A DNA stretch of 20,229 nt from a virus. Under the pieces are notes generated by a model. The model saw only the letters and a program-made list of their open reading frames with translations, was not told the DNA's origin and searched no databases. The stretch lies in the IMG/VR virus record IMGVR_UViG_3300031951_001516, positions 1-20,229 of that record; one strand, 5' to 3'. The position numbers were made by a program, and so were the translations under genes. Position 1 is the stretch's first letter. Each line of letters opens with the position of its first letter. Of the stretch, positions 1-11,873 are shown in pieces.

Positions 1-572
1 GCACGGAGCGAACGCGCAGCTCGTGAGTTACCTCCGCCGTAAGAAGCAATAAGTGCTTGAATAGGAATGGAATTGTTCGGGTCAGATTCAATGCGAGTCA
101 TGGAATAGATGTATGACTCGGAAGTTGGAGAATCAACCAAAACAGAGGCAACAAGTGGCTTGGATTCTGATGGGATGCGTGGATCAGCAAGAACCCAATT
201 CAAACGCGCTTGTGCAAAAGCAGAAGCAGTCATCGCATGGGGCTTTGTAGAACTTGGATGTCCTACAGGAAGCAAATCAGTGAACTGGTCTACAGAAGTG
301 CTAACAGACTTGTCATGATGTGCAAGATTGATAAACTCAGAAAGAGATTTAAGAGCACGATACTCACGCAAAGAATACTCAAGCCCAACAGTGCTAAGAA
401 GAGATTTTTTAACGACAAGAGTTGCCGCCCTTCTACTTATTCTGCGTTCAGCAGAAAACTCGGAGTTGGCTTTATCAACAATGGAGTAGACCTTTTTCTT
501 AAGTCTTTTAGCTTGCTCTTTCGTGGAAAGAGTTTTATTGCTTAGACTGAGTTTATGCGAGTGTCTACGCAT
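1..572 (-). CDS. Head-region protein, 3' end outside window (partial)
   Basis: Open minus-strand frame from ATG at 570-572 running off the left edge, about 190 codons visible. AGGAG lies about 10 nt upstream of the start, and the start overlaps the end of the Dps-fusion gene by 8 nt (ATGCGTAG), so the two are translationally coupled. The N-terminus is rich in Lys/Arg (residues 1-60). Around residues 98-110 it carries a DLLPVGHPSSTK segment that resembles DLLPASHPRSSK in the upstream gene. After that comes a helical stretch (MTASAFAQARLNWVL). The position after portal suggests a capsid, scaffold or maturation role, but I do not recognise the family and assign no function. Confidence 0.8.
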   Translation of the reverse strand, partial: MRRHSHKLSLSNKTLSTKEQAKRLKKKVYSIVDKANSEFSAERRISRRAATLVVKKSLLSTVGLEYSLREYRALKSLSEFINLAHHDKSVSTSVDQFTDLLPVGHPSSTKPHAMTASAFAQARLNWVLADPRIPSESKPLVASVLVDSPTSESYIYSMTRIESDPNNSIPIQALIASYGGGNSRAARSLR

Positions 573-1788
573 GGTCTACATTCTCCTTTAACGGTAGCAA
601 GTCAGCATCAATACTTTGATAGCCGTACTCAGCCAAATCTAGGGCTCTGTCGAATGGGTTTTGATTGTCTTTTACACCACGAGCCCACGCTGCTTTAAGT
701 GAAGGCTCAATTTCATATCCAAAACCTGAAAACTCTGCCATCGCAAGAATTGCTTCTTCTATAGAGGCATATTCTTCCTGGTCTTTAATCTCTACAGTAA
801 GTTCTGCATCATAGTTTTCCTCGAGTAAGGCTCCTGCAGTAACTGCTGAGTTAGATTTCTTTGAACTCCTTGGGTGCGAAGCAGGAAGAAGGTCGTTATC
901 TGTTGTGTAATTGGAGTTTGCTGGCTTACCAGACTTCAACAAACGAAGGAAAGCATTAACTCGACCCATAGCCCATTGGTCGCGAGTCATTCCAGGACGG
1001 TGCGAAGTGGAGAATGCTCCTGCGCCTCGTCGGTAGACTGCCTTAAGCATAGATAGAGAGGCTTTTCTTCCGTTAGGAGCGCTCTCATTGTGCTTAGAGA
1101 CTTTCTCTTTTAAACTTTTTTCAATTTTGTCAGAGAACTTTACTTTTCGAGCGCTCTTTGTTCCAGAAGCAGAGCCCGCTTTGTTAGTTTTCGACCCTTT
1201 AATTCTGTCCTTCTTTGGTGCAGGAGTTTTTGCAAGGCTTCCCGCAGCAAAAACAGGCTGTTCATCCATAAAAACCTCTTCGGTCTCTACTTCTACAGGT
1301 TGAACAGCCTCAGATTCCCCCGAGGACTCAGAAGTAAGGAAAGCATTTAACTGCCAACGCCATTTTTTGTGCATATCAATGCGACCAGCAATAAAATCTG
1401 CAATTCCTTGCTCGTTAGCGGCGTCTGCAACAGCAAAGCAATTATCAAGAGAGCGAATCATAATTTCATTGGAATCGTAGAGGTCTTTACACATAGACAT
1501 TGCGTTCGTTCCAACATTTGCATCTTTAACAGAAGAGAGTTGAGCGAATTCAACAAGTTTGTAAGGAGCAAAAGCACCAAGTTTTCTCATGTTCTCTGCA
1601 AGAGCATCAAAAGAAGAGTAAATATCCTCATAAATGTCAGCAAAGAAATCATGGAACTGTGAAAAATCATTTCCAACAACGTTCCAGTGATGGCCATGAG
1701 CCTTGAAGTAGAGAACAACAGCATTACCTAAAGTCTCCGCTAATGCCTCTGATACTTCTGGCTTTTCAATAGAAAAATCTTGTGCCAT
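565..1788 (-). CDS. Dps/ferritin-like domain fused to phage head-region protein
   Basis: 407 aa. Residues about 5-155 form a complete Dps-like four-helix mini-ferritin: HHWNVVGNDFSQFH then D61 and E65, and a closing KWRWQLNAFL helix. In Dps numbering the ferroxidase ligands correspond to H34, H46, D61 and E65. The fifth ligand position (H46+4) is A50, with D51 beside it, so the centre may be altered. A Ser/Pro/Lys-rich linker (about 156-225) leads to a second region (about 226-310: YRRGAGAFSTSHRPGM, NDLLPASHPRS) that I remember from other phage proteins without a known function. Start ATG; its AGGA RBS lies inside the last codons of the portal gene 2 nt upstream. Position after portal suggests a virion or prohead protein. 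Iron binding or DNA protection in the particle is inference. Confidence 0.85.
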   Translation of the reverse strand: MAQDFSIEKPEVSEALAETLGNAVVLYFKAHGHHWNVVGNDFSQFHDFFADIYEDIYSSFDALAENMRKLGAFAPYKLVEFAQLSSVKDANVGTNAMSMCKDLYDSNEIMIRSLDNCFAVADAANEQGIADFIAGRIDMHKKWRWQLNAFLTSESSGESEAVQPVEVETEEVFMDEQPVFAAGSLAKTPAPKKDRIKGSKTNKAGSASGTKSARKVKFSDKIEKSLKEKVSKHNESAPNGRKASLSMLKAVYRRGAGAFSTSHRPGMTRDQWAMGRVNAFLRLLKSGKPANSNYTTDNDLLPASHPRSSKKSNSAVTAGALLEENYDAELTVEIKDQEEYASIEEAILAMAEFSGFGYEIEPSLKAAWARGVKDNQNPFDRALDLAEYGYQSIDADLLPLKENVDHA

Positions 1789-1790
1789 TT

Positions 1791-3530
1791 TTAGATTCCT
1801 TCCTGCGGCGTTTCAGGTACTTCTTCTTGAGGTACTTCTTCTGGTGTTTGCGGAGCTTGCGATGTTTGACCAGAAAGAATCTGTTCTACCTCTGGAGGTA
1901 GTGGAGCAACGGAAGCTGCTTGTTGACTTTGTCGCACTGCGTTCATCATCTCTGGTGCAATAGCACCAAGCATTGCTTCGGTAAGTTCTGGAGTAATAGT
2001 TCCTCTTTCGCGAAGCATACGAATAGCAGTTTCGTTAGAGGTTGGAGCATCTGCGTTAGTAAATCCATGCGCTCTGCGCCATGACTCGTAAGAAATTGCT
2101 CCGCGGTCAAATCCTGAATCAGCATCGGCTGCGCGGTCATTGCGTGTGGAAACTGCTGATGGGTCATACCAAATAACAATTCGGTCTACTTCTGATTGTG
2201 GATAACCATTTGCTACAAGGTATGGTCGAAGATAAACAACGGTAAGAGAGTCTGCAATAAGAAGCATTAAAGGTTCGATGTGTGTTTTGTAAAGAGTCTC
2301 ATCTATTTGCAGTGCGTTGGAGTACTTAACATTAGCAAGACCAGTAATCATATCTTTAGGAACATCGAGACCTTGCAAAATACGCTCAAGAACTCGGTCT
2401 GAACGCTCAGCAAGTTGTGGGTCAAAGGAGCGCTCGAACTTGAACTGCTTAATTTTGTCGCCAAGTTCGGCAGGACCGCGAATAATGAGCGGAACAACTG
2501 CGCTAGCAGACTCTTCATCACGAATAGGAGTGGTCATCGCATCAATGAGTTGGTCTTCAAACTCATCTTCTGCTTCCTCAACAGTAAATCCTGGATTTAA
2601 ATCGTTATCGTCGTCATACGGGAAATCCCCGTCGCCTTGTGCGGCAACGGAGAGCCCGTCGGGAAGATAGAGTGCGCCCGCGTTGAGACGAGAACGTGCT
2701 GTGGCACGGAAAGTTCTATTAAGGAGAAGAAGTTCAGCGCAAAGGTCAAGCAAACCGCGAATCGACGAATCTGCTTCGTCAGAAAAACGTGGATGTGAAC
2801 GCCAAATGCGACCAACAAAAGCTTTGCTATTAAGTTTAAGAGGGTTGTTTCCAGAACTATATGCGGTCTGTCCTGTCACTTGTTCTCTACGCCCAATAAG
2901 GTTAAACCCACCTCGAACATCAGCAAGAAGTTCATCAACAGATTTGATATCCCATGACTCAGGGATGCCATGTCCTGGCTTTTCTGGAACTTGAACAAGA
3001 TAACATTCACCAGCAACGCTCAAATTAAGTGCTGCATCACGAAGGAGACCTGCTTGTCCGCCGTATGCTGAATCTAAACGTGATAACGCACGTTCTGCTG
3101 CGGCTGCAAGGGATGGGTCTACAGTAGAAGAAGTACGAACAGAGTTTGGTGCTTCTGCAGGATTATCAACAACTGCTGCGTAGAGTCGAATGCGTGAGAT
3201 GACAGATGCAACAAGATTAAATGCGTATTTAATTTCTCCGATAGCGTCGTAATACTCCCAGGCTTCTTGTTGCCATGAACTCGAACCTGCAGAGCGACGT
3301 GCTTTAAATTGCTCGAATTCTCCCTTGTCATTAATTTTAATTTGAGCAGCAGCAGCGGTGAGGGTTCGCGGTGTGCTGTATGTAGGGGTAGGGAGAGGGT
3401 TAAAGAATATGGAGGAAGCACCAGTTATAGGTGCTTGACTATTAATCCGTTGAGTAGATGCCGACGCTCGAAGCGGCTGAGAAGCGCTGTCGGCGTTTTG
3501 GCCTTGTTCTGTGCGTCTAAAGACGGCCAC
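1791..3530 (-). CDS. Phage portal protein
   Basis: 579 aa, GTG start with GGGAG 5 nt upstream (3536-3540). Size and layout fit a portal: a disordered N-terminus, a WEYYDAIGEIKYAFNLVASV segment entering the wing, then a stem/crown-like part (VLERILQGLDVPKDMITGL, NALQIDETLYKTHIEPLMLL) and a C-terminus rich in Gln/Pro/Glu. The second half has the typical portal run from the long helix to IVIWYDPSAVSTRNDRAADADSGFDRGAISYESW. Portal forms the dodecameric DNA channel at one capsid vertex and anchors terminase. It is followed after 2 nt by the Dps-fusion gene. Family assignment rests on memory of actinophage portals and synteny. Confidence 0.85.
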   Translation of the reverse strand: MAVFRRTEQGQNADSASQPLRASASTQRINSQAPITGASSIFFNPLPTPTYSTPRTLTAAAAQIKINDKGEFEQFKARRSAGSSSWQQEAWEYYDAIGEIKYAFNLVASVISRIRLYAAVVDNPAEAPNSVRTSSTVDPSLAAAAERALSRLDSAYGGQAGLLRDAALNLSVAGECYLVQVPEKPGHGIPESWDIKSVDELLADVRGGFNLIGRREQVTGQTAYSSGNNPLKLNSKAFVGRIWRSHPRFSDEADSSIRGLLDLCAELLLLNRTFRATARSRLNAGALYLPDGLSVAAQGDGDFPYDDDNDLNPGFTVEEAEDEFEDQLIDAMTTPIRDEESASAVVPLIIRGPAELGDKIKQFKFERSFDPQLAERSDRVLERILQGLDVPKDMITGLANVKYSNALQIDETLYKTHIEPLMLLIADSLTVVYLRPYLVANGYPQSEVDRIVIWYDPSAVSTRNDRAADADSGFDRGAISYESWRRAHGFTNADAPTSNETAIRMLRERGTITPELTEAMLGAIAPEMMNAVRQSQQAASVAPLPPEVEQILSGQTSQAPQTPEEVPQEEVPETPQEGI

Positions 3531-6803: not shown

Positions 6804-7064
6804 TTATTTCTTTTTACTAACCGCAGACTTCTTATCTACCTTATTAAAAATCTCATCAACTTCCTGGGCAGATAATTTTCCATCATTGAGGTAAGCTCTA
6901 GATAGACCCTCTACAACAGTAGCAACTCCACCTACACCAGCTACCAAAATAGCTTGCCACAGCTCAATTCCGGCAATAGTTCCGGCTCCAATAACAGATA
7001 AACCAGAGGACATAAATACAGCTAGGATACGAGCTAATATCTTCTTAAATTGTTCTAGGGACAC
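6804..7064 (-). CDS. Holin-like membrane protein
   Basis: 86 aa, GTG start with AAGGAG 5 nt upstream. Two hydrophobic helices (ILAVFMSSGLSVIGAGTIAG and LWQAILVAGVGGVATVVEGL), then a charged helical tail (LSAQEVDEIF) ending KKSAVSKKK. Length, two helices and the basic C-terminus fit phage holins, which open the membrane to let endolysin reach the wall. The endolysin-type genes lie upstream on the same strand, though a plus-strand gene intervenes. No exact family named. Confidence 0.65.
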   Translation of the reverse strand: MSLEQFKKILARILAVFMSSGLSVIGAGTIAGIELWQAILVAGVGGVATVVEGLSRAYLNDGKLSAQEVDEIFNKVDKKSAVSKKK

Positions 7065-7156
7065 TTTTTCTCCTTGGGAAAGGTTGTAACAATTTTACCG
7101 CGTAATAAAAAAGTGATAATTAGGACAAAAAGATAGCTCCGTGTATTTTTATAGTC

Positions 7157-7185
7157 TTGCGTATAGCTAACTAATTTGGTACACT
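7157..7185 (+). promoter_or_regulatory. Promoter for 7239 gene
   Basis: TTGCGT (7157-7162), 17 nt, TACACT (7180-7185). Confidence 0.55.
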
Positions 7186-7238
7186 TACACCAAGAAGCCA
7201 AGCCATAGGGGGCAAGGCAGCCAAAAAAGGGGAATCAA

Positions 7239-7469
7239 ATGGCTCAAATCATTAAAGACGAAGATCTCATTTCAATAATGAACGGCACAAATAAAAACGG
7301 AAAGAAAGTCTTTCTCGCAATTTTCGAGCCTCGCAAAAACTCTTTTCCACAAATGGACGGGCGCTCTATAATCTTCCACGCAAACACAAAGGCAGAGGCA
7401 GAGAACCTAGCCAAAGAATATGGCAGAAGGATTTTAGATAGAAACTTACAGTATCTAGGTGTTGCGTAA
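7239..7469 (+). CDS. Small basic protein, unknown function
   Basis: 76 aa, AAAAAGGGGAATCAA before ATG. Alternating beta-type pattern (KKVFLAIFEPRK, RSIIFHANTKAEAENLAKEYGRRI), reminiscent of a small alpha/beta domain. Net basic. Own promoter and terminator on the strand opposite the lysis genes. This single-gene insertion splits the holin-like gene from the lysozyme and peptidoglycan-binding genes. No family recognised. Confidence 0.75.
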   Translation: MAQIIKDEDLISIMNGTNKNGKKVFLAIFEPRKNSFPQMDGRSIIFHANTKAEAENLAKEYGRRILDRNLQYLGVA

Positions 7470-7497
7470 GCCTTCTATAAACTTTAGAGTTAGAGAG

Positions 7498-7530
7498 AAG
7501 CCCTCCGGAAACGGGGGGCTTTCTTCTTTT
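7498..7530 (+). terminator. GNRA-loop terminator
   Basis: AAGCCCTCCG / CGGGGGGCTT 10-bp stem with GAAA tetraloop, then TTCTTCTTTT. Ends the 7239 gene. Confidence 0.9.
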
Positions 7531-7618
7531 AATTTTTACCTTGATTAAAGTTAGAAACTTAGCTTAACCGCACAACTAAGCGGCGAGCGCAAACCGGGAA
7601 AATAATTTATGAGCTAGA

Positions 7619-8152
7619 TTAGTCTTCCAGCTGCATAGGGGTTCCGGCTAACAGAGCCTCTACAGTTTCTCGGGAAAATACTCCATCAACAGTTAGGCCC
7701 TTATCAGCTTGGAACTTCTTTACAGCTTCCACCGCGTAATCGTCTATCCAACCGGGTCTGCCGTATGAAGCTTCTACATAACCCAGCTCGGTGAGTCGAG
7801 TCTTTACCGCAATAACAGAAGCTGAGTTCCGGCTATTTGCTTTATATACGAGCTTGCTGAGCTTTACAGCTTCACCCGCAAAAGTTGTAACTCCAAGCTC
7901 GGTCCCAGCTGAGGAATTATTTTTATATTTTTTCTGAACTGGAACCGGAGCCGGAGATTCTTCAGGTGTAGGAACTGGAGCTGGCTCCTCTACTACCGGA
8001 GCTGGAGCTGAAACTTCCGGCTGAACCGGAGCTTCTACTACAGATTCTATTTTTTCCTCTACAGTAACTGAGCTAACCTCGTCAATAATAGCTGGAGCTG
8101 GCTCATGGACCGCGTTAGCTATATTATCCTGATTTGGTAGGTTATCACTCAT
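7619..8152 (-). CDS. Peptidoglycan-binding domain protein of the lysis block
   Basis: 177 aa, ATG immediately after the TAA of the lysozyme gene, with the RBS (AAAGGAG) formed by that gene's last codons. Residues 1-75 are acidic and Pro/Ala/Val/Glu-rich (PAPV repeats), probably an extended linker. Residues about 110-172 form a PG_binding_1-type domain (VIAVKTRLTELGY then AVEAVKKFQADKGLTVDGVF and ETVEALL). No signal peptide or catalytic domain. It presumably targets the cell wall and may act with the adjacent lysozyme as a two-chain endolysin. That partnership is inference. Confidence 0.85.
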   Translation of the reverse strand: MSDNLPNQDNIANAVHEPAPAIIDEVSSVTVEEKIESVVEAPVQPEVSAPAPVVEEPAPVPTPEESPAPVPVQKKYKNNSSAGTELGVTTFAGEAVKLSKLVYKANSRNSASVIAVKTRLTELGYVEASYGRPGWIDDYAVEAVKKFQADKGLTVDGVFSRETVEALLAGTPMQLED

Positions 8153-8740
8153 TTATACTCCTTTAGGAAAATCCTTTAGTCTTAGTTTGTAGGCTCCTGA
8201 GCGATATACGCTCCAAGCCTTCCAATTCTTTCCACCATTACTCATATGATACGCGATTCTTGCGTTCCTTATTGGATTGAATAAAGCGCTATTAGAATCT
8301 AAGTCGAACTTATCTCTACGAGATACGCCCGTGCTATCTATCATATTTATTTGGAATATCCCATAAGAATTATCTCCAGTTTTTCTATTGCCATTGTGAG
8401 CAAGGGGTCTGCCATTTGATTCGGCTTTAGAGATAGCCCACGCTATTTTCAAGGAACTGCCCTTGAATCCAGCATAGCGAAGAACCTCAACCAACTCTTT
8501 GTCGGACAACTTATCCGCGTTAGAGAGAACAGATATTCGCTTGGCCGTAATTTTCTTTATTACTGAGCGCTGAGTAGGTTTCATACTAACAGCCTTATGC
8601 TCTATGGTGAACCACTTAGCATTTCTTTGTTTTACTTCTAGTGCTTGCGCCCTTTGGTCGGCAAGGTAAATCGTTGAAGATACAACCATAACAAGGGCAA
8701 GGGTGAATCTTGTAAAAAACTCAACCTTGTTTTTATACAT
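8153..8740 (-). CDS. SLT/lysozyme-like muralytic enzyme with N-terminal anchor
   Basis: 195 aa. Residues 9-27 are a signal-anchor or signal peptide (FTRFTLALVMVVSSTIYLA). After a basic linker comes a lysozyme/transglycosylase-type domain: AWAISKAESNG with the candidate catalytic Glu107, then NSYGIFQINM (about 124-133) and ARIAYHMSNGGKNWKAWSVY. The family cleaves the MurNAc-GlcNAc bond of peptidoglycan. Export through the N-terminal segment would make it independent of, or only timed by, a holin. The RBS AAAGGA is part of a perfect palindrome (8741-8753). Directly coupled to the peptidoglycan-binding gene. Confidence 0.85.
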   Translation of the reverse strand: MYKNKVEFFTRFTLALVMVVSSTIYLADQRAQALEVKQRNAKWFTIEHKAVSMKPTQRSVIKKITAKRISVLSNADKLSDKELVEVLRYAGFKGSSLKIAWAISKAESNGRPLAHNGNRKTGDNSYGIFQINMIDSTGVSRRDKFDLDSNSALFNPIRNARIAYHMSNGGKNWKAWSVYRSGAYKLRLKDFPKGV

Positions 8741-11300: not shown

Positions 11301-11873
11301 TTATTTTACAGACTGAACAGTAATAAAAAACGGCGCACCTGTTCCAGTATCTAACTTAGAAGAAATTGTTAGAGCCTGTTTGACCGCAGCCTTTACTTTG
11401 AGTTGAGTATATGTCTTACCATCAAGAGTGGCATAAAGAGAACCTAAAGCAAAAGAAGAACCAGAACCTATTGCGTAAATACCAGAATCATCATGACACC
11501 AAGCATAATCTTCACCAATTTCATATACCCTGCCATGAACCACTACAAGGATATTCGATTCATGTTCTCCATCTTTTCCATAAGAAGATTCCTCAAAACA
11601 ATTTTTCAACTCTGAAAGAAACTGAGTTGCCATAAACTTATCTAACCGCGCTCCTTTAAGATTTCCTGGAGCTGGGGGTTTGAAAACATGGGAAAGAATA
11701 TTTATAGCTCGCATATCACCAGCTGCTCCAAGAAGATATGCGCCATTCTGAAACATCTTTGGAGATTCTTTGGTTAGCGTATAGATTCTACTTCCAGCTC
11801 CATCATCAACAACTCTGGAATCGTAACCAACAACAGCCCAGTTAGGACCTTGAACTCCAATAATTGTTGTCAT
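11301..11873 (-). CDS. Proteasome/HslV-like N-terminal nucleophile hydrolase
   Basis: 190 aa. Removing Met1 exposes TTIIGVQG, the classic start of proteasome beta/HslV chains, so Thr2 is the likely nucleophile. D18 matches proteasome Asp17. The catalytic Lys is less certain: K35 or K39 in TKESPKMF. NGAYLLGAAGD (43-53) and YAIGSGSSFALGSLYA (133-148) match the conserved core and the GSG substrate motif. Length fits a single Ntn domain. Such proteins form ring peptidases with an unfoldase; here the partner would have to be a host or distant phage protein. Overlaps the upstream gene by ATGA. Confidence 0.8.
   Translation of the reverse strand: MTTIIGVQGPNWAVVGYDSRVVDDGAGSRIYTLTKESPKMFQNGAYLLGAAGDMRAINILSHVFKPPAPGNLKGARLDKFMATQFLSELKNCFEESSYGKDGEHESNILVVVHGRVYEIGEDYAWCHDDSGIYAIGSGSSFALGSLYATLDGKTYTQLKVKAAVKQALTISSKLDTGTGAPFFITVQSVK

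Follow-up and report, generated by a model that had tools for sequence, protein, structure and literature searches.

The window, by which we mean the whole analysed stretch of 20,229 nt, is a 20-kb viral contig of an uncultured freshwater phage in which the head operon is visible only in part, and directly behind its portal gene a protein is encoded that joins a Dps-type mini-ferritin, in bacteria usually a protein of iron storage and DNA protection, to the phage domain DUF5824. We regard it as fairly probable that this is a head-internal protein, whose mini-ferritin half would shield the packaged DNA from iron and peroxide or carry iron.

Architecture of the Fusion Protein

A full-length Dps-like domain had been proposed in the preliminary description of this DNA, and the assignment has been borne out by profile searches and structure prediction (Table 1). 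Residues 14–152 match the Pfam family Ferritin (PF00210) with E 1.6e-19 and 70.7 bits against a cut-off of 24.5, the ORF matches PHROG 3636 (Dps) with E 1.5e-24, and Pseudomonas Dps 8ff9 has been obtained as PDB sequence match (E 2.7e-21). The AlphaFold model, calculated for the monomer, reaches a pLDDT of 96–99 across residues 11–150 and has shown the ferritin-type four-helix bundle (helices 10–36, 42–69, 96–123 and 127–152) with a short BC-loop helix at 78–84, and the Foldseek matches listed are all Dps structures, with TM scores (target) of 0.77–0.93. A chance resemblance to ferritin is excluded by the Pfam, PHROG, PDB and Foldseek matches, and an EncFtn-type ferritin has been discarded, as the closest structures and sequences are those of Dps, with no EncFtn among the matches listed. 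The earlier reading of four ferroxidase ligands with alanine at the fifth position agrees with the alignments, in which H34, H46, D61 and E65 are retained and A50 stands where E. coli has D67, so that the five-ligand site of the window protein is incomplete. As the fifth acidic ligand is absent, we speak, judging from sequence, of a Dps-type domain and make no claim of ferroxidase activity.

Table 1. Features of the fusion ORF and its neighbours in the window
Feature	Position	Strand	Evidence
Portal protein	1791..3530	(-)	PHROG 776, E 4.1e-107
AGGAAGGA, Shine-Dalgarno-like, inside portal gene end	1797..1804	(-)	Sequence
Dps::DUF5824 fusion ORF, 407 aa, ATG start	565..1788	(-)	ORF call, Pfam, PHROG
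Dps (mini-ferritin) domain, residues 10–152	1333..1761	(-)	Pfam, PHROG, AlphaFold, Foldseek
Ferroxidase ligand positions, whole span	1594..1689	(-)	Phage and cellular Dps alignments
Ferroxidase ligand H34	1687–1689	(-)	Phage and cellular Dps alignments
Ferroxidase ligand H46	1651–1653	(-)	Phage and cellular Dps alignments
A50 at fifth ligand position, normally acidic (D/E)	1639–1641	(-)	Phage and cellular Dps alignments
Ferroxidase ligand D61	1606–1608	(-)	Phage and cellular Dps alignments
Ferroxidase ligand E65	1594–1596	(-)	Phage and cellular Dps alignments
Disordered linker, residues 156–215	1144..1323	(-)	Low pLDDT over most; motif in alignment
DUF5824 domain, residues 216–310, basic	859..1143	(-)	Pfam PF19141; giant-protein N-terminus homology; charge
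Acidic C-terminal region, residues 311–407	568..858	(-)	AlphaFold; conserved in relatives; pI 4.1
Giant downstream protein, start	1..573	(-)	Overlaps fusion stop (ATGCGTAG)

The linker that had been described between the Dps domain and a phage-type region is present and disordered (pLDDT mostly 38–56 over residues ~159–214 in the AlphaFold model), it carries the motif PAPKKDRIxGSxxNxxGSA conserved in the alignment of relatives, and it is followed by DUF5824 and by an acidic end with a helical domain at ~343–391, whose C-terminal helices are modelled with a pLDDT of 89–98. DUF5824 itself is recognised by its Pfam match (residues 209–300, E 3.8e-10), whereas its fold has been modelled with low confidence and has given no Foldseek match. 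With a computed pI of 10.7 and a charge of +12, this part of the window protein could touch DNA. The Dps part carries a charge of about -11. A Lys-rich DNA-binding tail on Dps was considered and is absent: the basic motif and the basic domain are part of DUF5824 and occur also in loci with a separate Dps gene. An assembly or frameshift artefact joining two genes, named beforehand as what would undo the fusion, has been ruled out, since the same uninterrupted ORF is found in two assemblies from other samples (L003 and L004, one nucleotide difference each) and homologous fusions exist elsewhere.

Gene Order around the Portal

The portal gene is identified by its PHROG match, while Pfam Phage_portal stays under its cut-off (E 1.2e-4). 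Its stop codon TAA (1793–1791) is followed by two bases and then by the ATG of the fusion ORF at 1788. Of the start coupled to portal that had been claimed, the spacing and the AGGAAGGA element inside the portal gene fit, and translational coupling is therefore plausible.

The giant protein that follows has a length of 1939 aa in L003 and contains a DUF5824-like N-terminal domain (hhalign 97%, E 8.9e-11) and, further along, a DEDD exonuclease domain. Regarding the DUF5824 proteins of relatives, that of L020 (4321–5457) extends into the giant protein's LQRRDRKGRFAEMGGG motif, one more fusion, which ties the three neighbours together, and those of L012, L013 and L019 share the recurrent N-terminal motif GPCWDGYKQVGMKxKxGxMVPNCVP. 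Elsewhere in the window, an HslV/proteasome-like peptidase (11301–11873, minus strand; PHROG 1040, E 4.1e-23) and a lysozyme-like SLT_3 protein (7619–8740, minus strand) with a peptidoglycan-binding protein behind it, likely a lysis pair, have been recognised.

The wider operon can be read from DSL-LC01, a complete relative with a predicted Actinomycetia host (PMC10611076), whose genes run in the order terminase, portal, DUF3626 protein, DUF5824 protein, giant protein, head maturation proteases, major capsid protein and tail, and from the cultured Arthrobacter phage Racecar with portal, giant protein, protease and capsid. Based on the gene order in these two phages, with head genes identified by their profile names and sequences taken from metagenome contigs, we assign the fusion to the head operon in a lineage that resembles actinophages. 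In DSL-LC01 (L083), the DUF3626 protein (7005–8405) fills the slot behind portal that Dps holds in relatives, several PHROGs of unknown function match the PAPKKDRIxGS region, and a gene of the head operon is annotated as high potential iron-sulfur protein.

The giant neighbour also brings in another reading, in which the fusion protein is packaged alongside this protein of polyvalent type and enters the new host together with the DNA, where it buffers iron or peroxide. The neighbour is multidomain and exonuclease-bearing and shares DUF5824 with the fusion, and for polyvalent proteins of phages with portal and terminase, packaging and injection have been proposed (PMC5512222). A folded Dps dodecamer measures about 90 Angstrom outside (PMC10536872) and would have to come apart before it could pass a tail channel, and we hold delivery as an injected effector to be quite unlikely.

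Dps in Head Genes of Related and Unrelated Phages

The same fusion was searched for in other phage proteins, and homologous Dps-DUF5824 fusions have been found in relatives. Among the loci fetched with the window protein, Dps follows portal in 57, with its start lying -4 to +2 nt from the portal stop in 48 of them, and the order portal, Dps, DUF5824, giant protein is fixed. Dps is either a separate gene before the DUF5824 gene or fused to it through linkers very unequal in length; the portal tree implies three or more switches between the two states and places the fusion of the window among relatives with separate genes. A ferritin match occurs exactly once in 25 of 26 viral contigs and is missing in L068, a DUF5824-bearing sister represented by an 83-kb fragment. 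As no Dps has been found in L068 or in DSL-LC01, the domain is dispensable. No cultured phage of the collection has turned up with a member of this Dps clade.

Behind portal, Dps is lacking in a set of sister phages. In the near-identical L059 and L060, it resides instead inside an ORF of 1719 aa with matches to head maturation proteases (PHROG 18402, E 1e-54), adjoining the major head gene (PHROG 777, E 3.5e-80). The 1719-aa ORF at L250 (G005:C1, 3868–9024, minus strand) combines a PHROG 2859 module, a head-maturation-protease region and Dps, beside the major head gene. Cys-rich modules of HiPIP-like or zinc-like appearance (CxNC...C...GxC) have been noticed in the L059 protein (~145–235), in the linkers of L023–L037 and in the L096 fusion; for the HiPIP-like module only weak Pfam matches below cut-off have been obtained (E 0.003–0.008), and the window protein lacks it.

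A second, smaller phage group contributes 51 ORFs in which an N-terminal module, Dps and an S78 prohead protease are all present, in addition to incomplete ORFs in the same order, and these fusions stand between the portal and capsid genes, as they do in L095 and L096, two contigs binned in bacterial genomes. One such ORF holds both Pfam S78 (E 6.7e-39) and Ferritin (2.8e-11), and public collections of predicted structures contain such proteins under the names 'Prohead protease' or 'DNA-binding protein Dps'. The linkers between Dps and protease are very unequal in length (L174–L238, L095, L096). The N-terminal module is PHROG 2859, for which hhalign has given no homology to DUF5824. Further placements include Dps between terminase and portal (L073), Dps 3' of the major head gene (L094) and standalone Dps of the same clade near replication genes (L078, L079).

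The suggestion that the protein uses the 12-fold symmetry of portal has found no support, because Dps 12-mers are tetrahedral (23) shells and not 12-fold rings (PMC10536872), and Dps is also located within protease genes. The capsid-interior location that had been claimed beside it has fared better, being favoured by the fixed order of portal, Dps, DUF5824 and giant protein and by the fusions with maturation proteases. In HK97-type phages, the maturation protease acts inside the procapsid. Gene order alone does not prove that Dps is packaged; its repeated positions among head genes, together with its fusion to a protease acting inside the procapsid, make enclosure likely, and on these sequence grounds we consider the enclosure of Dps in the procapsid as strongly suggested.

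The placements also bear on the possibility that Dps is an antioxidant of the infected cell, i.e., an auxiliary gene product that protects host and replicating phage DNA and is merely located in a late operon. Such a function is the usual reading of phage ferritin and Dps genes in the available text of the respective reports (PMC6802176, PMC8008677), and the known phage Dps genes examined are standalone, as are the clade members near replication genes. An antioxidant of the cell leaves unexplained, however, why Dps is placed at the portal stop and repeatedly fused to DUF5824, and why it is joined to a prohead protease between portal and capsid genes, and we consider this explanation unlikely.

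Origin and Ligands of the Phage Dps

One clade unites the phage Dps domains to the exclusion of cellular Dps (support 100/99, and 100/98 in a second tree), and the clear cellular Dps found have at most about 34% identity to them. Within the phage domains, the protease-borne Dps of L250 clusters with the other protease fusions and apart from the portal-linked copies (96/83), in trees in which some deep branches are weakly supported. Within one phage family, Dps therefore seems to have arrived among the head genes along two routes. A single origin of all head-placed Dps is not claimed, as these copies form a clade in the tree but with weak support (88/62).

The ligands H, H, D and E are invariant in 70/70 phage copies and in all further sets aligned. 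The fifth position is acidic in 72/77 cellular relatives, a set selected for resemblance to the phage proteins rather than drawn at random from Dps, compared with 16/58 portal-linked copies and 0/53 protease fusions (8/28 and 0/17, respectively, when counted per 90%-identity cluster). One relative with the fifth ligand retained is L005. Of the two iron sites of Dps, one binds tightly and the other weakly (PMC10536872), and loss of the fifth ligand likely weakens one iron site; owing to this loss, the di-iron site may be impaired in the window protein and most of its relatives.

An alternative is that phages have taken over the Dps fold for structure or scaffolding, for oligomerisation or as a procapsid spacer, with iron chemistry lost or incidental. 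In line with this, most phage copies have lost the fifth ligand, and all 53 protease fusions have a non-acidic residue there; in these fusions, Dps is moreover embedded between other domains. A purely structural role would have no need of the H, H, D and E residues, which have stayed invariant in every copy despite strong divergence, nor does it fit with the acidic fifth residue kept in 16 of the 58 portal-linked copies, and we regard recruitment for structure as very doubtful.

Proposed Function

Returning to a head-internal mini-ferritin, we infer the packaging, the oligomer, the iron chemistry and the biological benefit of Dps, and the targeting role given to DUF5824 is a guess. The fusion protein would be made in the late head operon through coupling to portal, the DUF5824 part would bring it into the procapsid, and the Dps part would there form a small ferritin-type shell or a partial assembly, in which the retained H/H/D/E sites would bind ferrous iron. 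With the iron bound, iron and peroxide would be kept from damaging the packaged genome; alternatively, the iron may be carried into the next cell. Sister phages as well as unrelated phages would achieve the same end with Dps inside the head maturation protease. That several freshwater tailed-phage lineages build an iron-binding mini-ferritin into the procapsid, with Dps attached either to an internal protein next to portal or to the maturation protease, is put forward tentatively, with the chances slightly below even. Virions would thereby gain an internal buffer against iron and peroxide, for protection of the genome or for delivery of iron, as a phage counterpart of encapsulated ferritin.

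So far, ferritin genes of phages have been taken for antioxidants that serve the host. Should Dps instead belong to the head, the particle itself may control iron and the oxidative damage to the DNA packaged in it, with consequences for how virions survive in sunlit water and for the open issue of iron in virions. Through the prohead-protease fusions, a location of Dps in the head lends itself to a direct test.

Comparison with Known Systems

The Dps domain is known, while its architecture is new and its location probably so. A literature search, with most subscription journals outside its reach, has found no description of Dps fused to head proteins, and no papers on DUF5824. Members of the Dps family itself, such as PA0962 of Pseudomonas (PDB 8ff9) and Bacillus brevis Dps (1n1q), share with the window domain the four-helix fold, the BC-loop helix and the residues H, H, D and E (Foldseek TM(target) 0.86–0.92). 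The window protein differs from them by its fusion to a phage domain, the Ala at the fifth ligand position, its phage-specific clade and the missing Lys-rich tail on the Dps part.

Dps genes ascribed to defence against ROS are likewise found in tailed phages, among them freshwater phages, Gratiaviridae, Lactobacillus phages and Synechococcus phage S-SRM01. As far as the available text of the reports goes, ferritin has been listed among the ROS-defence genes of freshwater phages (Kavagutti 2019, PMC6802176), and the ferritin/Dps of gut phages (Gratiaviridae; Benler 2021, PMC8008677) and of Lactobacillus phages (PMC6669764) has been read in the same sense; that text contains no mention of a Dps fusion in the head operon. 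The ROS-defence genes examined are standalone, in contrast to the fused Dps of the window.

Polyvalent proteins (Iyer 2017, PMC5512222) are multidomain, encoded beside portal genes and thought to be packaged, a description that the giant neighbour fits. The window protein shares their placement, as it adjoins portal, and in DSL-LC01 as well as Racecar, portal, giant gene, protease and capsid gene form one run; ferritin and Dps are named nowhere in the main text of that paper. With regard to the S78 fusions, the Roseobacter phages CRP-811 and CRP-823 have the PHROG 2859 module in common with the phage Dps-protease fusions but, unlike these, lack a Dps domain. In CRP-811 the module heads a protease-capsid polyprotein, and in CRP-823 it precedes DUF5824 in an ORF between portal and the protease-capsid gene.

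A natural parallel is provided by the encapsulins, which combine a phage-like HK97 shell fold with ferritin-like cargo. There, the gene of an HK97-type shell is accompanied by a partner of the ferritin superfamily, and the ferritin is held inside the capsid (PMC10536872). In the phages considered here, the shell would be the capsid of an infectious particle, with a Dps as its partner that is linked to a protease or to DUF5824 instead of carrying a short targeting tag.
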